Positions 7,399-21,950 of a stretch of 22,682 nt of DNA are shown one piece after another. The stretch covers positions 1 to 22,682 of the IMG/VR virus record IMGVR_UViG_3300009605_000161; one strand, 5' to 3'. Positions within the stretch are counted from its first letter, which is position 1, and each line of letters opens with the position of its first letter. The notes below the pieces were generated by a model, which ran no database searches, was not told where the DNA came from, and saw nothing but the letters and a program-made list of their open reading frames with translations. This DNA comes from a virus. The position numbers and the translations under genes were made by a program.

Positions 7399-8550
7399 AT
7401 GAGTAAGAAAAAGTGGACAATTTATGGTGCTATTGCCGCAGCCGTTCTGGTTGCTGCAATTGCGACACCCGTACTTGCAGATGAGCCTTCATATGAAGAC
7501 CTCACCGCTCGTTTGGATGCCGCAGAAGCACGAATTGCAGAATTGAACAAGTCTGAACCATCAGAGATGGATATCGCCAGAGCAAATGCCACTAAGGCAC
7601 TTGTTCGTGATGTTCTTGCTGATGCAGATGCTCGTTCAATGATGCAAGGCAACGGAAGCCCTGTTACAGTAAATGTACACGGATTTGTACAATCTCGCTA
7701 CACCTATAGTGGTGGTGGTGATGACGAAGCCAATCACGGTTTCGGTCTTCCCCGCGCCCATCTTGAACTTTCTGGAGACCTCTATAATTGGGGTTATGTA
7801 GTAAGTGGACAGTGGAGCGAAGGAGGAGAGTTTGACCTTTTGGATGCTTATGCAGAAGGTGGACTCTTTGGTGGAAATGTCCGTGTAGGACAATTCAAAG
7901 CACCGTTTATGCGTGAGGTACTTGTCTATCAGGCAGATACTCTTATGACAGAGCGTTCAATCGTGTCCAACCAGTTTGGTCAGGGTCGTTCGCAAGGTGT
8001 TCAGTATAGTCGTGATTTTGGTGTGGTAGATTTTGCTGCCGCTTACACCGATGGTTTCGATACTGCCAATGGCGCAGGAGTTCAGAACGGTCAGGCATTT
8101 ACTGCCCGTGCTGGATTCGATGTTGCTGATTGGTGGAATGTGGGTGCTGCCGTTTCATATAACGATTTGGTAGACACCGACTACACCACCTACACCCTTG
8201 ATACTAATGTATCATTCGGTGGAGGTCTTGACTTGACTGCTGCCTATGTTGCAACTAGCGGTGACGCTGGAGACAATTGGGGAACAACAGTTCAAGCAGG
8301 GTATCATTGCATGGATAACCTACAAGGTTTCGTTGCATATGAGTATGGTGAATTAGAAGATGTTTCAGAGAATCTTAGCATTGCAACTGTTGGTGCCAAT
8401 TATTGGTTCAACGATAATGTCAAGTGGACAACCGAATTAGGTTATGCACTAAATGGCATTAATGGTGCTTGGGATTTGGGAGAAACAGGTTGGCGTGCTG
8501 GTGACAGTGGCGAATATGTTATTCGTACCCAACTTCAACTTACTTTCTGA
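7399..8550 (+). CDS. Outer-membrane beta-barrel porin (phosphate-selective porin O/P-like)
   Basis: Predicted secreted 383-residue porin. Residues 1-27 are a clear signal peptide (basic MSKKK, hydrophobic core, cleavage after VLA). A short coiled coil follows (DLTARLDAAEARIAELNKSE), as in trimeric porins with N-terminal coils. From about residue 90 the chain is alternating amphipathic strands starting VNVHGFVQSRYTYSGG, rich in aromatic, Gly and Asp residues. It ends in QLQLTF, with the terminal Phe expected for BAM-directed outer-membrane proteins. The pattern resembles the OprP/OprO family, but substrate cannot be read. It sits in a cassette with its own sigma70-type promoter and terminator, unlike the phage genes around it, which suggests a moron-like acquisition from a bacterium. 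Confidence 0.85.
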   Translation: MSKKKWTIYGAIAAAVLVAAIATPVLADEPSYEDLTARLDAAEARIAELNKSEPSEMDIARANATKALVRDVLADADARSMMQGNGSPVTVNVHGFVQSRYTYSGGGDDEANHGFGLPRAHLELSGDLYNWGYVVSGQWSEGGEFDLLDAYAEGGLFGGNVRVGQFKAPFMREVLVYQADTLMTERSIVSNQFGQGRSQGVQYSRDFGVVDFAAAYTDGFDTANGAGVQNGQAFTARAGFDVADWWNVGAAVSYNDLVDTDYTTYTLDTNVSFGGGLDLTAAYVATSGDAGDNWGTTVQAGYHCMDNLQGFVAYEYGELEDVSENLSIATVGANYWFNDNVKWTTELGYALNGINGAWDLGETGWRAGDSGEYVIRTQLQLTF

Positions 8551-11456: not shown

Positions 11457-12224
11457 ATGGTACTTAGGAGAACTGCATATTTCTTAGCAACTTTGTTATG
11501 TTTAGTAAGTTGCACTTCAACTCTACCTTTACCTACACCTCCCCAACAACAAAACCCAATACCAGAAGTCTTTGATCCTTTTGTTGCCACAAACAATGAA
11601 AACGATCCCTATCCTTTCGTTGGTTCTATTCATAGAGAAAATGGAAGTTTAGTAGGCGGCGGAGTTCTTATTGCACCCGATGTAGTTCTAACTGCTGGAC
11701 ATTGTATCGATAATAAAAAAATAGACTCAGTATATTTTGGAGAAATGTGTGTTCCTGTTTCCTCTACTCTTCTTCATCCTGAATATGAAATGTATGGAAG
11801 ACCTGTAAATGATATCGGCATTATTTTTCTAGAATATCCAGTAGATATTAACCCCATTTCCCTACATAATAATAGAGTATTGTGGAGATTCAGTGATATA
11901 ACAGTTATCGGATATTCGTTCGGATATAAAAAATACAGCAAGCCAAGTGTATTTCAATATTACGGAACAATACTTGAAGACATAAACGAAATAAAGTTTC
12001 TACCAAGACGGGCAACAATCTGGTTTGGTGATTCTGGCGGCGCAGTAATTGCTACACTAGAAGGAGAAGAAAGGTTAGTAGGAATAATAACATCATTCTT
12101 GACAGATGAATTTGGAATAGTCGAGTGTTCGGCTACACGAATTAAATTTTATAGAGGGTGGATTGAGGAGGTTCTAAATGAACAAGGATTGGACGGACGG
12201 GGTAGCCGAATGGGTGAACAATAA
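11457..12224 (+). CDS. Trypsin-like serine protease, predicted lipoprotein
   Basis: A 255-residue S1-family protease with a full catalytic triad: H82 in TAGHC, D119 in NDIGIIFL, and S193 in GDSGGAV. The N-terminus MVLRRTAYFLATLLCLVSCT is a lipoprotein signal with lipobox LVSC (lipidated Cys19), followed by a Pro/Gln-rich linker (LPLPTPPQQQNP). The mature enzyme should therefore be anchored in the host envelope, facing the periplasm or surface. The barrel spans about 50-235. A late promoter box lies just upstream, so it is probably made late. Possible roles are cutting host envelope proteins before lysis or blocking receptors; phage origin of such an enzyme is unusual. Confidence 0.88.
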   Translation: MVLRRTAYFLATLLCLVSCTSTLPLPTPPQQQNPIPEVFDPFVATNNENDPYPFVGSIHRENGSLVGGGVLIAPDVVLTAGHCIDNKKIDSVYFGEMCVPVSSTLLHPEYEMYGRPVNDIGIIFLEYPVDINPISLHNNRVLWRFSDITVIGYSFGYKKYSKPSVFQYYGTILEDINEIKFLPRRATIWFGDSGGAVIATLEGEERLVGIITSFLTDEFGIVECSATRIKFYRGWIEEVLNEQGLDGRGSRMGEQ

Positions 12225-12337: not shown

Positions 12338-12772
12338 ATGGAAGAAAACAATGGACACTGGAATAATTTACCTGATGACTTTAACTTTGATGATTGGTTT
12401 GGGTTTGTATACTGTATTACTCGTAAAGACACACAGAGAAAATACATCGGCAAAAAACAAACCAGTTCGTATCGCCGTAAGAAAGTCAAAGGCAGAACAA
12501 ACCGCAAAAAAGTAATTTCCGAATCTAACTGGAAAAAATATACTGGTTCTTGCGACGAACTCAATCAAGAAATAGAAGAACTTGGAAAAGATAAGTTCAC
12601 CTTCGAAGTCTTGAAACTATGCAAAACCAAAGGTGAACTTACTTTTTCAGAAGTAGAATATCAATTCAAATATGATGTTCTTACTTCTATACTAGAAAAT
12701 GGTGAGAGAGAATATTACAATTCTAATATTATGAGTCGTTGGTTCTCTTCTTCGTCTTACCTAAATTCTTAA
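12338..12772 (+). CDS. GIY-YIG family nuclease-like protein (SegE-like)
   Basis: A 144-residue protein with the paired strands of a GIY-YIG domain: GFVYCI at 22-27 and KYIGKK at 35-40. A basic stretch follows (SYRRKKVKGRTNRKK), then SNWKKYTGSCDELNQEIEEL, KFTFEVLKLC, GELTFSEVEYQF and a C-terminal IMSRWF. This matches the short SegE-type GIY-YIG proteins common in T4-like phages, which include homing endonucleases. R45/R46 and E105 or E107 are candidates for the catalytic Arg and Glu. No ribosome binding site is visible. Its last 44 bases overlap the convergent minus-strand gene. Confidence 0.8.
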   Translation: MEENNGHWNNLPDDFNFDDWFGFVYCITRKDTQRKYIGKKQTSSYRRKKVKGRTNRKKVISESNWKKYTGSCDELNQEIEELGKDKFTFEVLKLCKTKGELTFSEVEYQFKYDVLTSILENGEREYYNSNIMSRWFSSSSYLNS

Positions 12773-13685
12773 AATTATTTTTAATCTTAATCTGTGAAAC
12801 TATCTTCTTCGTCATTGGACTTTGCAATTCACTAGCAAAACCATTTCTACCAAAAATTTCTTGTCGCTCTTCGGTATCTAGATGCTCTTTCATCTCTTCT
12901 ATGAGTTCCACAATTTCTTCAATTGCTTTTTCGTATCGGCTGCCATTAACAAGCATCCAGCCAACTACTGCAATTGTTGCCACGAATCCAACAATTAAAA
13001 CAATCAACCCAACAGTAGCAATTTCTTCAAGATAGTATTGCGATGCGGCTGCAAACCCTACTGTCAATATACCTATTGCAAGTAAAACTGCACCAAGCCT
13101 ACCATTCACCCAAAAGGCAATGAAGGCACCGCCCACCAACATTCCGAACCCCATTACAAAGAATAGAGTAATATAATTATGGAGATTTTCTAGGGCTTCT
13201 CTGCGAACTTCCCTGTCGGAAGTCTCGTAGTCCGCAACTAGGTCCTCTAGTTCCTCGATCTGACCGACGGCTGCGCCAACTCTGTCGTTCGCCTGATCCA
13301 AATCTTCCAACGCTTCTTCGATCCGAACCTGTTCTAGCGCCGCATCGTCCACATGTTCCTTGATTGTTTCTGCGGAATTCTCGATGTTGTCCAGAGTTGG
13401 GTCGATGTTGTAATTGTGGTCGTCTGGAACGAGTGCTATCTCGTCTAGAATGGAATTCGCTTCCTCGTCTATGTTCTCCAGTGTCCCTGCTATCGAGTCT
13501 GTAGCGTCTGTGATTTCCTGAGTCTGCTCCGTCTGCTCTCTCACGCTGTCCACCACAGTTGAAGCGGTGTTCTCTGGAGTTCCATCGTGAGTCATCTGTT
13601 GGAGTGCTTCGCAACCCGCGCCGCTTACGAGAGTCATCAGTACGAGCATCTTCGTTAGGCGACTGGCTCTTTCTCCATTGAGCAA
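12729..13685 (-). CDS. Lipoprotein with periplasmic coiled coil and three C-terminal membrane helices (spanin-like layout)
   Basis: The open frame runs from 13766, but I place the start at TTG 13685. It has AAGGA close upstream and gives a compact signal peptide (basic n-region, then KMLVLMTLVSGAGC) with lipobox GAGC. ATG 13721 and 13649 are alternatives. After the lipidated Cys comes a long acidic coiled coil of about 140 residues, then three membrane segments (FFVMGFGMLVGGAFIAFWV; LGAVLLAIGILTVGFAAAS; IATVGLIVLIVGFVATIAVV), then a charged cytoplasmic tail. An outer-membrane lipid anchor plus coiled coil plus inner-membrane helices is the layout of a unimolecular spanin, though those have one helix. 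It is largely nested in the gene starting at 13839, and most of it uses GC-rich codons. Confidence 0.7.
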   Translation of the reverse strand: MLNGERASRLTKMLVLMTLVSGAGCEALQQMTHDGTPENTASTVVDSVREQTEQTQEITDATDSIAGTLENIDEEANSILDEIALVPDDHNYNIDPTLDNIENSAETIKEHVDDAALEQVRIEEALEDLDQANDRVGAAVGQIEELEDLVADYETSDREVRREALENLHNYITLFFVMGFGMLVGGAFIAFWVNGRLGAVLLAIGILTVGFAAASQYYLEEIATVGLIVLIVGFVATIAVVGWMLVNGSRYEKAIEEIVELIEEMKEHLDTEERQEIFGRNGFASELQSPMTKKIVSQIKIKNNFKNLGKTKKRTNDS

Positions 13686-13839
13686 ACCGTTCCTTTGCTT
13701 CTTCTGGTGAAATTTTGCCATCGGCGATTGCCGTTCTAAATCTCTGTCCAATCTTTTCTCTTTCATTATTTACCTCCGAGTCCTGTGCAACAATTGGTGT
13801 TGCTAATAATAATACTGCTAATGCAATTAGTGTTTTCAT
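13177..13839 (-). CDS. Secreted small protein; real start, uncertain C-terminus overlapping the lipoprotein gene
   Basis: ATG 13839 overlaps the upstream stop (ATGA) and has CGGAG before it, so the start is sound. Residues 1-19 are a signal peptide (MKTLIALAVLLLATPIVA, then QDSE). Residues about 22-60 look like genuine protein (EREKIGQRFRTAIADGKISPEEAKERFAQWRKSQ). After about residue 70 the chain becomes Arg/Ser/Gly-rich and lies in the +1 frame across the coding region of the lipoprotein. That part may be only a stop-free shadow in GC-rich DNA, or a real basic tail. A frameshift joining the two frames is a third option. The nested layout recalls Rz/Rz1 spanin pairs. Confidence 0.55.
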   Translation of the reverse strand: MKTLIALAVLLLATPIVAQDSEVNNEREKIGQRFRTAIADGKISPEEAKERFAQWRKSQSPNEDARTDDSRKRRGLRSTPTDDSRWNSREHRFNCGGQRERADGADSGNHRRYRLDSRDTGEHRRGSEFHSRRDSTRSRRPQLQHRPNSGQHREFRRNNQGTCGRCGARTGSDRRSVGRFGSGERQSWRSRRSDRGTRGPSCGLRDFRQGSSQRSPRKSP

Positions 13840-16169: not shown

Positions 16170-18233
16170 TTATATTTCTAACAATTCAAAGCCAAAATTG
16201 ACATCTATTGATTCCAACTGTCGTTGGGGTTTCCTTTGTTCTGATAAAGTAAATGTCTTATTCACATTCACGCTATAATTAAGTGTTTCTAAAAATCTCT
16301 TACCTATAAGAACCAAGTATGTGTTGTCATCTCGGTCGCTTAAGTTAAAGAGAACATCTTTGTATTCTTTCTTGCCAAACTTTATATCAAATTTGACTAG
16401 ATATCGTTCTTCCCATTGGTCTGAACCGATATTAATTTTTTGAGTTTGTACGATTGGTTTAGTAAACTTCTTTCCAAGAATACTAAAGGACACATTCTTG
16501 CCCTTTGCTTTTACATTATCTGAATGAATAGAATTTACTGAACCATTCCCTGTATCTACTTTGGCTTTTAATTTACCAACACCCTTGACTGTGATGTATT
16601 CTACATAACCAATTTCCTTGGAAGTAAATTTCCAATTCTCTTTGTTAAGAATATGGTCGAGAACATAACCAACCAACTCTTCGCCGCTAAGTTCTTTTCC
16701 TTCGTGGCCTGGATGATATCCCATATACGGTGCGGCGCCAGAACCTGGCGAACCATTCACCTCTAGAATATAATGTTTTCCGTTGTGTGTGATATGGTCA
16801 ACACCTGCATAGTAACAACCAGATATCTTATATGCTTTTCTAATAAGGTCTTTTTCTTCTTGGCTCAACTTGTAGGGAGCAGTGTCATTACCCAATGCTT
16901 TATTGGTTCTAAATTCTTTCCCACCAGAAGATTTGATTCTTTTTACTGAAGCACAAATCTTACCATCTAGGACAAGGGTACGGACATCGTGTTTAATCTC
17001 CATATATTCCTGAAGGATAATCTCTGCTTCGTGCTTCCACAAGGACTGTAGAACGGATTTAAGGGACTCATAGGACTCAATTTTCGAAACTCCGATACCT
17101 TCAGCACCTGTAATCGTTTTTATGATAACAGGGAACTTGCCCCCGATCTTTTCAAGAGCAATGTCAATCGAATCTTCGTTATTCACAAAGGCTGTTCGTG
17201 GAGATGAAATTTGATTTTGTTCAAGTGCAAGTGCAGTAACCATTTTGTTCTGGCAAAATTGCATAGACTCAAGACTGTTTACCATAAACATTCCAACTTC
17301 CTGTAGCGTTTTTACCATACCCGTACCAGCATTATCAAGAATAGCCCCGCCGCGAACCAACGCAACGGTGTTGTCTATTTTTAGATTAATATTCTTTCCG
17401 TCGCCGCCATAATTATGAATAGTAATTTCGTTATCTTCCATATCCTTGTCTACAATAAATGCGTGGTCAGTATGCACGGCAAAGAAAGATACACCTTTCT
17501 TTTTACATACTTTTGCCAATCTTTCAATGGTATCAGACTTCTCATTATCTGTAGAAGATTTGGTAATAGCAATAACCGTTGGAAGGCTTTTGTCTTTTGC
17601 TTCCTCTAAACTAATCAGTCTATTCCAATCTTCTTCTAGTGATTCTCGCACACCCATTGCAGTTCTCAATTTTTTGTATAGTTGTTTTGCAATTATTTTG
17701 TTTCCTACGCCCAATTCAAAACTTTCATAGTCTCCCGCAACTGCGGCCGCTCTCATCTTTGAAGCAGACATTCCTTCGACTCCTTCTGCATCGGGGTCTC
17801 TCTGTCCTGCACTTCTTACTTCAAAGTGGTCAAATTGATATCCATCTGGTCCAACATATTTTGAAATACTTTTTTCTAATTCTGCTACTCTATCACCACC
17901 AACGACAAGAATAACTTTTTTATATCCTTCATCACTTAATTTCTGCATCATATAAAACGGATTTATTACAGACCTATCGTCTATAACATTTACTTTCCTG
18001 CCAAATATCTTTCTCATAAAACTAATTTTGTCTCTGGGCTTTAAAGGGTCTCTATTGTCGCCTGCCTTTCGACTTGGGTAAATACGATGCTCTGCTCTTT
18101 CCCTTCGGGCATTGTCAACCACCGCATCAACTAGTTTTTGATGACCAATTGTAGGTGGTTGAAAGCGCCCGAAGGTTACAACGATAGCCTTCGTTTTGTC
18201 TTCGTTCAGAAAATCTCTGACCGATTTACTCAT
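16170..18233 (-). CDS. Triple fusion: nucleotidyltransferase + RimK-like ATP-grasp ligase + RimB-like aspartic protease
   Basis: A 687-residue enzyme in three parts. (1) About 15-195: HIGH-superfamily nucleotidyltransferase, with VVTFGRFQPPTIGH (TIGH 28-31) and GMSASKMRA (164-172). (2) About 215-530: RimK-type ATP-grasp amino-acid ligase, with nucleotide loop IIKTITGAEGIGV (K372), LQEYMEIKHDVRTLV, YYAGVDHI and metal residues in ILEVNGSPG (E491, N493). (3) About 545-675: RimB/DUF785-like retropepsin fold, with KAKVDTG (D560) and LIGKRFLE. RimK adds glutamates to a protein C-terminus (ribosomal S6 in E. coli) and RimB acts with it; here both sit in one chain. The N-terminus MSKSVRDFLNEDK resembles a T4 capsid-targeting peptide. 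ATGA overlap with the upstream small gene. Substrates unknown. Confidence 0.87.
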   Translation of the reverse strand: MSKSVRDFLNEDKTKAIVVTFGRFQPPTIGHQKLVDAVVDNARRERAEHRIYPSRKAGDNRDPLKPRDKISFMRKIFGRKVNVIDDRSVINPFYMMQKLSDEGYKKVILVVGGDRVAELEKSISKYVGPDGYQFDHFEVRSAGQRDPDAEGVEGMSASKMRAAAVAGDYESFELGVGNKIIAKQLYKKLRTAMGVRESLEEDWNRLISLEEAKDKSLPTVIAITKSSTDNEKSDTIERLAKVCKKKGVSFFAVHTDHAFIVDKDMEDNEITIHNYGGDGKNINLKIDNTVALVRGGAILDNAGTGMVKTLQEVGMFMVNSLESMQFCQNKMVTALALEQNQISSPRTAFVNNEDSIDIALEKIGGKFPVIIKTITGAEGIGVSKIESYESLKSVLQSLWKHEAEIILQEYMEIKHDVRTLVLDGKICASVKRIKSSGGKEFRTNKALGNDTAPYKLSQEEKDLIRKAYKISGCYYAGVDHITHNGKHYILEVNGSPGSGAAPYMGYHPGHEGKELSGEELVGYVLDHILNKENWKFTSKEIGYVEYITVKGVGKLKAKVDTGNGSVNSIHSDNVKAKGKNVSFSILGKKFTKPIVQTQKINIGSDQWEERYLVKFDIKFGKKEYKDVLFNLSDRDDNTYLVLIGKRFLETLNYSVNVNKTFTLSEQRKPQRQLESIDVNFGFELLEI

Positions 18234-18346
18234 CTATTCCAAGGTGCTTTTGCTTTAATCCAATTCCATAGTGGAACGCCAATCAAGGCTCCGCCCACGA
18301 AACATAGAACGCTCCACCACACTGTACCTAAAACTGCTAATGTCAT
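18230..18346 (-). CDS. 38-residue single-helix membrane protein
   Basis: Starts ATG 18346 with AAGGAG just upstream and ends in an ATGA overlap with the triple-fusion gene. The peptide is one membrane helix (LAVLGTVWWSVLCFVGGALI) followed by a tryptophan/lysine-rich end (PLWNWIKAKAPWNR), giving an N-out or C-in topology by the positive-inside rule. Perfect coupling signals on both sides make it a credible gene despite its size. Function unknown; it could anchor or regulate a neighbouring protein. Confidence 0.75.
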   Translation of the reverse strand: MTLAVLGTVWWSVLCFVGGALIGVPLWNWIKAKAPWNR

Positions 18347-18361
18347 ATCAGTTCTCCTTTT

Positions 18362-19516
18362 TTAAACTGTTTTTAATTGCTGTAACCTTTTCTCTGGTAT
18401 ATTTAGACCAGATATTATGGTATACAACCTTAAACTATCTTTTCCATCCTCATAAATACCCCGATGCAGAGTTGCATTTGGACATAACGAAGATAGCGTA
18501 TCGAATCCATACGATAAACTATCCATTAATCCTGGCGTATTTTCCATAATATCCTTACCGCCAATTGCCACACAGGCGGCAACACTAGAGTCTGAAAGTT
18601 CTACATCAGTAAGAAGTGTCTTTTCAAGATTTGTCTTGATTGCACTTGATACCTTTTGTTCGTCATCAAACTCTTTTAATTTCGCTACACCCATAACCAT
18701 TACGCCACCACACCGCAAGACGCTGGAATAGTCTGTTGGGTCAAATGATGTATATGGTGATGGGTTGTTTGTGAGTACATTGAATACATGGAATAGACCA
18801 GAGATGGTATTATTAACTGTTGGCCAGAATTGTTTAACCGTTAATCCTTTATACATTCTTTCAATCTTGGAATTGTCAAGAATGATAAGAGGAGAAATGG
18901 TTTTTTCTTTTGCACATCCACCAACAACGCTCAACACTTCATGTGCATTTTTTGACACTACTGGTGAATTTGCTTCGCCTCTGGTTGGCAAAGACATAAC
19001 TACTCCAACTCGTTTTTCTGGATCGTCGTGCCCAATATACTTCATATATTTCTTGGCAGTTTCAATTAAAACGAGGACTGAACCACTTCCGCTGCCACCA
19101 CCAGCACCGACACAGACAAAAAGATGATCGACATTACTACCATAGACTCTTCGCATAAGATCGAATACATTTTGTTTATATTTGTTTGCCGCTTCATTGC
19201 CTTTATCCATATCCTTTCCTGCACCCTGTTCACCCACATCAAATAACATTTTTTGTTCGGCAGGCAATTCAAGAGTATCTAAATCGTGACGAGAAGTATT
19301 TACTGCAATACATTTTTTATATCCTCGTTCATAAAATGCTTTTGCAATTCTGCCACCACCTTGCCCAGAACCAATCCAAGCGAAGGTTTGAGAACCACCA
19401 GATTCGTCTTCTACCGCAGTTTCTTCATCTTCTGGAATTTCATAATCTTCCAAATCAATGTCTGGTATTTCTAAATCTGGAATTTCTGGAATTTGATTTT
19501 CTAATTCTTCGCTCAT
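18362..19516 (-). CDS. FtsZ/tubulin-superfamily GTPase
   Basis: A 384-residue filament-forming GTPase candidate. Residues 1-42 are an acidic tail of repeated EIPD-like units (EIPDLEIPDIDLEDYEIPED). The GTPase begins at about 45 (FAWIGSGQGGGRIAKAF). The tubulin signature is GAGGGSGSGS at 137-146. The T7 loop that completes the neighbour's active site reads FDPTD at 258-262 with both aspartates (D259, D262), so hydrolysis should work. Jumbo phages use the tubulin PhuZ to position DNA and capsids; this protein is not obviously that family and looks at least as close to FtsZ. AAGGA precedes the start. It lies between the ligase-like gene and the triple fusion. Confidence 0.85.
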   Translation of the reverse strand: MSEELENQIPEIPDLEIPDIDLEDYEIPEDEETAVEDESGGSQTFAWIGSGQGGGRIAKAFYERGYKKCIAVNTSRHDLDTLELPAEQKMLFDVGEQGAGKDMDKGNEAANKYKQNVFDLMRRVYGSNVDHLFVCVGAGGGSGSGSVLVLIETAKKYMKYIGHDDPEKRVGVVMSLPTRGEANSPVVSKNAHEVLSVVGGCAKEKTISPLIILDNSKIERMYKGLTVKQFWPTVNNTISGLFHVFNVLTNNPSPYTSFDPTDYSSVLRCGGVMVMGVAKLKEFDDEQKVSSAIKTNLEKTLLTDVELSDSSVAACVAIGGKDIMENTPGLMDSLSYGFDTLSSLCPNATLHRGIYEDGKDSLRLYTIISGLNIPEKRLQQLKTV

Positions 19517-19529
19517 TTATTTTTCCTTT

Positions 19530-20738
19530 TTATTTGTTCCAATTCTTAGGAACAGTAAAGTTTGCTTTACTAAATTCTAATCTATCTACTAATTTTAATA
19601 CTGTGTTACTTACTCTATCCACAGCAACAAAACCTTCTGGTGAAGTTACTCTAAATCCGTCAGCCGTCCTGATAAAAGTTCCTATTTCTTTTACCTGTTC
19701 AAGTTTCCGAATAATAAATACCTTCGCTTCCGCCAAGGCGGCGTGCAACGCAAAAATAGAATCCAGTTTTGTAGAATTCTTGCTTAAATATGCAAGTAAA
19801 TCTTTTTTGATTGTTTCTTTTCGCTCCTTTGCACTATCCGTCTTTAGCGTATCTATGGCTGCCTGCATTTTTGAGTCAATATAATTAATGAACCCAGCCG
19901 CAGAACCAACCTCTCCATCTCCCTGACGGATAAGGGCATTACCATAGATTTTTACCTCTGAAATAATCATAGGCTTACCACGCAGTGTATCAAGATATCT
20001 TTTTACACCGCCTGCTTGTCTCTTAATTTTTGCAATCAAAGAATTAATTGTGGACGATTCTGTACTTGTAAATGTTGCTGTACCCGAAGTGTCTCGAAAA
20101 TCGGCATCCTGAAACCAGACATCCCTAGTCTTTGCGAGAGAACCAACTCTAGGGTTGAAGGATGCTTTTAATCCTTTAATTGTCTTTCCTGTATATTTTG
20201 TGTGCCATACTACTCCTATCTTTGCATTAGTAATTGATTTCGCTGTATCTGAACCAGCGGGTACTGCATAGGTAATCGTATTCGGGGTAAAAGTAAGATA
20301 ATTCTCTCCGTCGATTTTTGTCGATGATGTATCATCTGTAAACATAATATCGCCTTGAAGAATTCCTCTAATACCCAATTTACCAAGGTACTTTAAAGCA
20401 ACTTTTAACTTGCTTGCTAATACAGCGGCGTGTCCGTGATTTTTGTCGATATCTGCATTCGTATAGTTGACTTTTGGGGTAACATTAAAAAGAGATTTTG
20501 TTGCCACAAAAAACTTTTTGGTTTCGGGGTGTATTCCTGCAAACACCGCAGGTGCGCCATCCCATTTAACGGTAACATTTACTCCTGATGATGCATTTCC
20601 ATGAAGCATTTCAGCCACTGATTCTAAAAAAGATATGGCTGTAGCAACACCTGAAGAACCTTCGTTCCACACAGTATCTTCAAGATGTTCCATATGAACA
20701 TTCTTCGATTCAGCAATAAACGTAGTAAATACCTTCAT
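19530..20738 (-). CDS. Ligase-like covalent nucleotidyltransferase candidate; conserved marine T4-like phage protein
   Basis: A 402-residue protein that I recognise as a conserved marine T4-like phage family without known function. In it I see motifs of the RNA/DNA ligase superfamily: KWDG at 58-61 (motif I, lysine nucleotidylation site) followed by APAVFAG; RGILQGDIMF at 124-133 (motif III-like); EGFVAV at 368-373 (motif IV-like); and LKLVDR at 381-386 (motif V-like). Their order is right, but the spacing between III and IV is long, with a helical insert near 285-355. The N-terminus MKVFTTFIAESK resembles the T4 internal-protein capsid-targeting peptide (MKTYQEFIAEA). First gene of the minus-strand operon. 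The ligase reading needs structure prediction. Confidence 0.68.
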   Translation of the reverse strand: MKVFTTFIAESKNVHMEHLEDTVWNEGSSGVATAISFLESVAEMLHGNASSGVNVTVKWDGAPAVFAGIHPETKKFFVATKSLFNVTPKVNYTNADIDKNHGHAAVLASKLKVALKYLGKLGIRGILQGDIMFTDDTSSTKIDGENYLTFTPNTITYAVPAGSDTAKSITNAKIGVVWHTKYTGKTIKGLKASFNPRVGSLAKTRDVWFQDADFRDTSGTATFTSTESSTINSLIAKIKRQAGGVKRYLDTLRGKPMIISEVKIYGNALIRQGDGEVGSAAGFINYIDSKMQAAIDTLKTDSAKERKETIKKDLLAYLSKNSTKLDSIFALHAALAEAKVFIIRKLEQVKEIGTFIRTADGFRVTSPEGFVAVDRVSNTVLKLVDRLEFSKANFTVPKNWNK

Positions 20739-20816
20739 TCGGTTTCCTTATTATACATAGTATATATGCCTTTATACATATAGTGTAGCAACCTTCATTA
20801 GAATAGGAAAAGACAA
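20739..20816. promoter_or_regulatory. Divergent promoter region
   Basis: A 78-base AT-rich gap between divergent genes. It is full of TATACATA/TATGTATA-type repeats on both strands, including TATACATAGTATATATG on the plus strand. The long minus operon and the plus adhesin block must both start here. Apart from the 12-mer at 20771 I cannot assign exact boxes; AAGGAAACCG precedes the minus start and AGGAAAAG the plus start. Confidence 0.6.
20771..20782 (+). promoter_or_regulatory. Candidate phage promoter element TTTATACATATA
   Basis: Second copy of the 12-mer at 8616-8627, ending 34 bases before ATG 20817; equal spacing to the start codon suggests a shared promoter. Confidence 0.4.
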
Positions 20817-21233
20817 ATGAGTAACAAATACGGTACATATCCCCAAAGACCACATCACCCTAACTTCACAGATATTCGCACAATGCAGATTTTTGACCCT
20901 GTAGTTGTAGGATATCAATCCATAGTTCCTGCTGAATGGCGAAGACTTAATTCTTCTGGTGCGACTTCTTCGCCCCAAGCGTGGGCAATTGCAAATGGCG
21001 CAACATTAGAAAATGGTGTTCGTATTAAAAATGTTACCGCCACTGATGTATGGGTGACTACGGATTCAGCAGGGACTAGTAATGATATGCCAATACGGGT
21101 GCCCTTAGGACCAACAGGTGGTTTTAACCTACAACAAAGAGAAGAAGTGTTCGTTGAAGTTCGTCAACTAGGACATGTTTGGGTAACTGCTGACCTTGCA
21201 GCCGGTGCTACTATTTCTATTATTGCGAGTTGA
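20817..21233 (+). CDS. Small structural-type phage protein upstream of the adhesin
   Basis: A 138-residue protein with AGGAAAAG upstream. The first 45 residues are polar (SNKYGTYPQRPHHPNFTDIR). The rest reads as beta strands (GVRIKNVTATDVWVTTDSA ... EEVFVEVRQLGHVWVTADL ... GATISIIAS), like a compact beta-sandwich virion protein. It begins the plus-strand block that carries the glycine-rich protein and the methyltransferase-like protein, so a tail or baseplate role is plausible. No family is named with confidence. Confidence 0.65.
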   Translation: MSNKYGTYPQRPHHPNFTDIRTMQIFDPVVVGYQSIVPAEWRRLNSSGATSSPQAWAIANGATLENGVRIKNVTATDVWVTTDSAGTSNDMPIRVPLGPTGGFNLQQREEVFVEVRQLGHVWVTADLAAGATISIIAS

Positions 21234-21236
21234 AAA

Positions 21237-21950
21237 ATGAGTTTTAAGGATAGGTTCAAAAAATCAAATCCTAGACACGATAAGCCACCACAGGAAAGGC
21301 CTATCATTAAGGCAAGGGTCAGGCCTGATTTGTATGAACCAAGTTGGGGCGACTACACTCTTAGTAAGCCTGGCATTGGATCGGCTTCCTCTACTACAAT
21401 CTCTTCCACTGGTTCTCAAACATACACTGTTCCACGCGGTGTAGATACCATCACCATCACAATGTATGGTGGCGGCGGCGGTGGTGGTAAGGCCGTGTCC
21501 GCCGGTAGAGGTGGTGGAACTACAAACGGCGGCGGTGGTGGCGGCGGAGGAAGAATTGTTGTAACTCTTAATGAAGTTGCTCCTGGCACAGTTCTTACTT
21601 TTAGTGTTGGAGCAGGTGGAGCAAAAGGAACGGGCAGCGGGAATAACGGTTCTGATGGTGGAAACACAACACTTTCATATGGTGGTGTTGATTATGTTGC
21701 AGGCGGCGGAGAAGGAAGTGCTGGTGGTGAATGTCTTTCATCTTGCAAAGATGGTACGGGCGGTGTATCAGATTGTGACAGTGGTTCAAACTGTGCTGCA
21801 ACGAACGGAAATAATGGAACAGCAATGGACCTCCTCGGCGTAGCGGGCGCCGCACTAGGAGATAGTGCAGGTGCAGGTGGAGCAGGTTCAACTGATGAAT
21901 CATCACAAAACCATGCCGACGGTGGTGATGGAAAAGTAATTATATCGTGA
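21237..21950 (+). CDS. Glycine-rich tail adhesin-like protein
   Basis: A 237-residue protein. Residues 1-50 are basic/proline-rich, likely a docking segment. A strand pair follows (SQTYTVPRGVDTITITMYGG), then poly-glycine tracts (about 78-105), more Gly-rich loops, and a terminal strand DGKVIIS. The TVPxGV...GGGGGG start and GGDGxVII end are typical of phage glycine-rich receptor-binding domains, such as T-even gp38-type adhesins. Four cysteines (C166, C170, C180, C186) in a Gly/Ser loop may form disulfides or bind metal, and this loop is a candidate host-range segment. GTGA overlap couples it to the next gene. There is no strong ribosome site, so coupling to the upstream gene is likely. Confidence 0.75.
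   Translation: MSFKDRFKKSNPRHDKPPQERPIIKARVRPDLYEPSWGDYTLSKPGIGSASSTTISSTGSQTYTVPRGVDTITITMYGGGGGGGKAVSAGRGGGTTNGGGGGGGGRIVVTLNEVAPGTVLTFSVGAGGAKGTGSGNNGSDGGNTTLSYGGVDYVAGGGEGSAGGECLSSCKDGTGGVSDCDSGSNCAATNGNNGTAMDLLGVAGAALGDSAGAGGAGSTDESSQNHADGGDGKVIIS

Follow-up and report, generated by a model that had tools for sequence, protein, structure and literature searches.

A tubulin gene in a T4-like neighbourhood

The window, by which we mean the whole stretch of DNA that was analysed, is a 22.7-kb record (22,682 nucleotides) of an uncultured virus. Positions 18362 to 19516 are fully occupied by an intact 384-aa open reading frame (ORF) on the minus strand. A sequence-only reading, which left the strand unstated, had placed an FtsZ/tubulin-like GTPase here, and this assignment was borne out by Pfam, PDB and fold matches and by the GTPase motifs. 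The features of the locus are the following.

18362-19516, minus strand: phage tubulin (TubZ-like GTPase), 384 aa, ATG start; domain, PDB and fold matches
19388-19516, minus strand: acidic, predicted disordered N-terminal tail, residues 1-43, with 18 D/E and 0 K/R; composition, and pLDDT below 50 for residues 1-31
19439-19468, minus strand: short motif IPDIDLEDYE, residues 17-26, family pattern [IL]P-x-[LI]-x-[IL]-E-D-[FYL]; conservation among phage homologs
19079-19108, minus strand: T4 tubulin signature GAGGGSGSGS, residues 137-146; alignment with the FtsZ/TubZ T4 loop
18731-18745, minus strand: T7 synergy loop FDPTD, residues 258-262; D259 and D262 correspond to FtsZ D209 and D212
19530-20738, minus strand: upstream gene, DUF6267 protein with the start MKVFTTFIAES; domain match
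18230-18346, minus strand: unlisted 38-aa ORF with one predicted transmembrane segment, a ribosome-binding-site-like AGGAG and an ATGA overlap with the next gene
16170-18233, minus strand: downstream gene, 687 aa, cytidylyltransferase-like N-terminus fused to RimK ATP-grasp and Zn_protease; domain matches

On the plus strand of the window are genes for UvsX/RecA and a DnaB-type helicase, for ThyX and a class II ribonucleotide reductase, and for a 351-aa protein that occupies the place of a primase. T4-like cyanophages, Methylophilales phage Melnitz and Pelagibacter phage HTVC008M supply nearly all relatives of the DUF6267 protein; in Melnitz and HTVC008M its gene comes after the UvsX-helicase block, and no tubulin is found there. 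The UvsX/RecA-DnaB-type helicase order, which is that of HTVC008M and Melnitz, and the DUF6267 neighbour support the earlier description of the locus as a T4-like operon. The 38-aa ORF separates the tubulin from the fusion gene, and a 43-aa version of it is present at locus L005. The MKxFxxFIxE-like start of the DUF6267 protein resembles the T4 capsid-targeting sequence, and so does VRDFLNED near the start of the fusion protein. The statement that the tubulin sits with injected-type enzymes holds for its neighbours in the window, but the tubulin itself has no MKxFxxFIxE-like start and is located elsewhere in other phages. Capsid targeting of the tubulin was rejected, its N-terminus being unlike the MKxFxxF start of the neighbouring protein. 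No tRNAs were found in the window.

GTPase motifs, fold and family placement

An alignment to PhuZ, plasmid TubZ and E. coli FtsZ showed that the protein retains all the relevant loops: T1 (GSGQGGG), T2 (NT), T3 (GAG), T4 (GGGSGSG), T6 (DN) and the T7 acidic pair (D259, D262). The two motifs singled out from the sequence alone, GAGGGSGSGS and FDPTD, are both present and align with the T4 and T7 loops of FtsZ and TubZ. The Pfam Tubulin model (PF00091) matched residues 47-220 (E=5e-11, 43.7 bits against a cut-off of 33), and TubZ-like_C (PF22453) matched residues 245-382 marginally (E=6.5e-6, 26.6 bits against a cut-off of 26). The best PDB sequence match was TubZ/RepX (4ei7, E=4.6e-17), with archaeal and bacterial FtsZ next. 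Membership of the tubulin/FtsZ superfamily is therefore far above chance, with the GTPase and T7 residues intact. The gene is under purifying selection, dN/dS being about 0.05 among close relatives, at saturated dS.

The AlphaFold2 model, obtained with 27 aligned family members (pLDDT 87.7, pTM 0.86), has a tubulin fold, the outcome on which the sequence-only reading had staked itself. In a Foldseek search of the PDB the top match was TubZ (2xka, E=1e-22, TM 0.75), with CetZ and FtsZ near behind. VIA-align gave Z scores in the range 28-38, namely 37.9 for TubZ (4ei7), 35.4 for CetZ and about 30 for FtsZ. The predicted fold is closest to TubZ, then to CetZ and FtsZ. Among viral models the best match was A0A6J5RW92 (TM 0.82, 28% identity), and PhuZ was much weaker (TM 0.50). 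A0A6J5RW92 is a protein of an uncultured Caudovirales phage in BFVD; unlike the window protein it has 452 aa, and its name, 'FtsZ Cell division GTPase', is an automatic annotation. Nothing on this protein was found in the open-licence literature.

Three closer identities were rejected. The NCBI ftsZ model (TIGR00065) gave 52.9 bits against a cut-off of 295.2, and the Tubulin_2 model (PF13809), which would indicate FtsZl1, gave 13.1 bits against a cut-off of 27. The PhuZ of phiKZ-like jumbo phages is likewise a phage-encoded tubulin, but phiKZ PhuZ carries a C-terminal TubZ_C_2 domain (PF22334) that is absent from the window protein. The TubZ of Bacilli plasmids, besides being the best structural match, shares the TubZ-like_C domain, the GxGQ T1 loop and the intact T7 acidic pair. 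It differs in having only 20-30% identity and in falling in a separate clade; moreover, the window protein has neither a TubR-like upstream gene nor iterons nor a long C-terminal tail, and has a conserved N-terminal motif instead.

In the phylogenetic tree the phage proteins, together with chromosomal proteins of planctomycetes, formed one group separate from plasmid TubZ (support 100/99). The plasmid set left out toxin-bearing phage and plasmid TubZ records and consisted of other plasmid TubZs; of haloarchaeal FtsZ/CetZ-type proteins, only one sequence entered the tree work. Trees including PhuZ, phage G and E. coli FtsZ had very long branches and were set aside. The cellular (planctomycete) proteins formed a clade with 100/100 support, and in an unrooted tree without TubZ a single branch (100/100) divided phage from cell proteins. 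When the tree was rooted with TubZ, the position of the cell clade was not resolved (AU p=0.35), and the direction of transfer between phages and planctomycetes is therefore not decided by the tree. The earlier remark that phage tubulins are best known from jumbo and plasmid-like phages needs qualification here, as the nearest relatives of the window protein are a broad family of marine phage proteins and planctomycete chromosomal proteins, not the PhuZ of jumbo phages.

A conserved motif in the N-terminal tail

The N-terminal tail had been described as an acidic EIPD repeat. It is indeed acidic, and EIPD/EIPE units are present, but it is not merely an acidic repeat, because a short motif found across the family lies inside it. 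A motif of the IPxLxIE type ([ILV]P-x-[LI]-x-[LI]-E) was present in the tail of 98/98 phage proteins of usable length. All of 27 representatives have P18 and E23, and 26 of them have D24. The mean majority frequency in this set was 0.71 for residues 14-26, as compared to 0.22 for residues 1-12, 0.52 for residues 27-38 and about 0.69 for the folded domain. A more distant subfamily (35-42% identity) has only a looser, LPDIPMP-like form. Since the motif is conserved like the fold and yet lies within a disordered tail, we read it as a putative docking peptide.

Spread among viruses

Cultured phages contain almost no relatives. The only match in 50,697 phage records was Bacillus phage G (24% identity), and tblastn with two family members found nothing beyond phage G among cultured phages. 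Its gp138, annotated as putative FtsZ-like, is the sole annotated phage relative in those records; unlike the window protein, it has no N-terminal motif and scores above the Pfam Tubulin_2 cut-off. Uncultured viruses gave a different picture. Scans of IMG/VR with the family alignment returned 37 loci in one case and 176 matching stretches in another, of which 80 were kept; a scan with the cellular alignment returned 40 loci, on contigs that include ones of 171,926, 178,630, 189,645, 230,047 and 241,426 bases. Homologs are thus present on well over 100 viral contigs, and they represent a large, apparently uncharacterised family of phage tubulins, to which many uncultured T4-type viruses of the sea contribute. 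The T4-type major capsid protein gp23 was found in 9 of 18 carrier contigs tested; the 22.7-kb window is too short to tell.

The neighbourhood of the tubulin varies by phage lineage. The largest lineage (L081-L134) has a fixed order: two small membrane-type proteins, the tubulin, a signal-peptide/transmembrane protein, a cysteine-rich protein, a protein of about 180 aa, TerL and the portal protein. A 109-aa protein with a transmembrane segment is found upstream of the tubulin in this lineage. When its loci were selected by terminase alone, the tubulin not being used in the selection, the gene was present in 46/46 loci with at least 2 kb of upstream sequence and in 55/55 with at least 1.5 kb. 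Among 80 DUF6267 loci, only the two near-identical contigs of the window have a tubulin nearby. Taken together, these counts indicate that the tubulin is a core gene in one lineage and an accessory gene at the locus of the window. Membrane-type neighbours were not clearly enriched as a constant partner (11/45 vs 42/270).

Some individual loci deserve mention. The tubulin at 6133-7290 of L202 has the motif LPILDIEDYD and lies beside recombination-nuclease-like genes on a 241-kb contig, the fetched stretch of which has 64% G+C; the family therefore extends to phages of jumbo size, in this case probably with a high-GC host. In L045-L052 a lytic transglycosylase-like gene lies upstream of the tubulin, and a secreted cysteine-containing (CxxCH-like) protein, a ClpP-like protease and a small cytidylyltransferase are encoded downstream; a secreted protease-like family (F17) is also found near the tubulin in these loci. 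At 1271-2482 of L226 the tubulin has an internal duplication, with SINQFWNTSNNSICSLFNLFNNIITKNSS occurring twice, which is probably an assembly artefact.

Relatives on planctomycete chromosomes

When 84,980 prokaryote genomes were scanned, two matches emerged, both in metagenome-assembled genomes of Planctomycetota of the Phycisphaerae type (Phycisphaerales and Sedimentisphaerales) and with 49-51% identity; the scan used short patterns, and carriers in other phyla may have escaped it. Carriers among the Phycisphaerae amounted to 6/150 genomes with the phage alignment and to 20/397 with the cellular alignment, and 392 genomes across the phylum added just two weak matches, in frames of 643-820 aa. 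The Phycisphaerae genes are chromosomal. One of them lies among ndk, pgk, rpe, accD, hisC, hisB, ispF and cysS (names read from the sequence), and another maps to about 2.89 Mb of its contig. No description of these tubulins was found in the open-licence literature. Makarova and Koonin reported FtsZl1 in planctomycetes (PMC2875224); the planctomycete forms described here also score under the PF13809 (Tubulin_2) cut-off, and by Pfam cut-offs FtsZl1 is a different family.

The absence of FtsZ from planctomycetes is established (PMC5147048; PMC10945688). FtsZ above the model cut-off was found in 0/150 Phycisphaerae genomes, as compared to 13/14 control genomes, and 6 of the 7 Phycisphaerae genomes with a sub-threshold FtsZ match were tubulin carriers.

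The similarity to the phage proteins, about 50% identity, covers the whole GTPase and includes an IPxLxLE-type motif at the N-terminus of most planctomycete proteins, for example IPVLDLERYE; in two of them it is altered (PALEMEGFE and SPSLELERA). In most planctomycete proteins, unlike the phage form, the motif is preceded by about 40-190 aa of Lys/Arg-rich, histone-H1-like tail. These basic tails suggest that filaments of the family can be tethered to DNA, and the planctomycete versions that have them are best read as DNA-tethered filaments. In the phage form an acidic tail replaces the likely DNA-binding one. Four planctomycete genomes also encode a paralog that has lost T3, T4 and T6 and has kept IPELELE[HW]F and the T7 acidic pair:

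L171, 7392-8510: GTPase-dead paralog with N-terminal motif
L172, 7661-8704: GTPase-dead paralog with N-terminal motif
L173, 7255-8313: GTPase-dead paralog with N-terminal motif
L174, 7602-8645: GTPase-dead paralog with N-terminal motif

These proteins are candidate pseudo-GTPase partners of the planctomycete tubulin. The retention of the motif where T3, T4 and T6 are lost indicates that the motif probably does not need GTP hydrolysis for its role.

Proposed function and alternatives

Our preferred reading, to which we give roughly even odds, is that the gene encodes an active TubZ-like tubulin whose GTP-dependent filaments position phage cargo late in infection, with the N-terminal motif as the docking element. 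In the infected cell the protein would polymerise with GTP into dynamic filaments, and these would place either replicated genomes or proheads and packaging complexes. The IPxLxIE motif on its flexible acidic tail may act as a docking peptide that joins the filaments with one another or with a partner. C-terminal tails play this filament-linking role in FtsZ and TubZ. Of the earlier claim of an active filament-forming GTPase, the intact motifs and the tubulin fold stand as found, and polymerisation is what we infer from them. The ~180-aa protein, TerL and the portal protein near the tubulin in 55/55 loci point to a late, packaging-module position; this fixed place and an intact, strongly constrained GTPase argue for active late filaments. 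No cargo adaptor was identified, and the neighbouring genes differ between phage lineages.

As an alternative, the protein might work as a PhuZ-like spindle that centres or rotates a replication compartment, one whose shell protein may have gone unrecognised. The protein belongs to the same superfamily, some relatives lie on contigs of 230-241 kb, and an FtsZ homolog has been noted in an uncultured circular phage that lacks nucleus-forming proteins (PMC7452251), which is the closest precedent that we found in the open-licence literature. We nevertheless consider a spindle rather unlikely, as the PF22334 domain is missing and the structural match to PhuZ is weak (TM 0.50); the phiKZ chimallin was detected in 0/18 carrier contigs, a weak argument given that the contigs are incomplete and that the search had no positive control. 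The resemblance to TubZ in solved structures and in the PF22453 domain would instead fit a TubZRC plasmid-type partition motor that keeps the phage genome through a long pseudolysogenic infection, and phages with TubZ partition are cited as described in a passage of PMC7824862. This we regard as improbable: plasmid tubZ has a gene of about 80-115 aa just upstream, whereas that place is taken here by DUF6267 and in the main lineage by the 109-aa transmembrane protein; no iteron array or TubR was found near the gene (17800-21300); the tree sets the family apart from plasmid TubZ; and the carriers are T4-like phages in which packaging genes are found beside the tubulin.

The identity of about 50% between phage and planctomycete proteins and their common motif make co-polymerisation conceivable, and the phage protein might thus poison or hijack host filaments, be they FtsZ or the planctomycete tubulin, so that division is blocked. 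An inhibitor, however, needs no intact and strongly constrained GTPase and T7 loop, the protein is remote from FtsZ by the TIGR00065 score, and the cellular carriers have no FtsZ, all of which makes such poisoning very improbable. The interference with host FtsZ suggested from the sequence alone found no support, as the only cellular carriers found have no true FtsZ.

The preferred reading of late cargo-positioning filaments can be set in a wider frame. The closest cellular relatives lie in chromosomes of planctomycetes without FtsZ, which points to a cytoskeleton common to viruses and bacteria. As a tentative extension, possible though not probable, phage and Phycisphaerae proteins may form one cytoskeletal family built around the N-terminal docking peptide. 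A DNA-tethered tubulin, in some genomes with a GTPase-dead partner, would serve chromosome organisation or division in FtsZ-less planctomycetes, and a de-tethered version in viruses of planctomycetes and other marine bacteria would organise replication and packaging. Such a shared cytoskeleton seems not to have been studied previously. The histone-like-tailed tubulin is a direct candidate for division or DNA segregation in some FtsZ-less planctomycetes.

To our knowledge, work on phage tubulins has dealt almost exclusively with jumbo phages that form a nucleus and with plasmid-like phages. Here a tubulin is constantly present in a marine T4-like lineage without a recognised nucleus, and its use to an ordinary lytic phage therefore becomes a testable question. 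A survey of jumbo phages reported two distinct phage FtsZ/tubulin representatives (PMC7824862), and a study of FtsZ/tubulin evolution does not mention phages and treats TubZ as a family of Firmicutes plasmids (PMC9871819).

Other observations in the window

The 16170-18233 fusion is an unusual combination of cytidylyltransferase-like, RimK ATP-grasp and Zn_protease domains. At 7399-8550 (plus strand) lies the gene of a 383-aa protein that resembles outer-membrane porins, has a signal peptide and gave no Pfam match; it may be a clue to the host or a receptor or nutrient gene. Its use to assign a host was rejected: porins of planctomycetes, the single phylum searched, matched weakly (43/199 genomes, best E 1.5e-14, about 30-38% identity). 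The gene at 11457-12224 (plus strand) encodes a secreted serine protease of the trypsin type (Pfam Trypsin, E=5e-12), the signal of which is lipoprotein-like. Finally, 12729-13839 (minus strand) contains two long overlapping ORFs in different frames, of 345 and 220 aa; the overlap and the clear signal peptide at the start of the 220-aa ORF suggest a joining frameshift, either programmed or due to sequencing.
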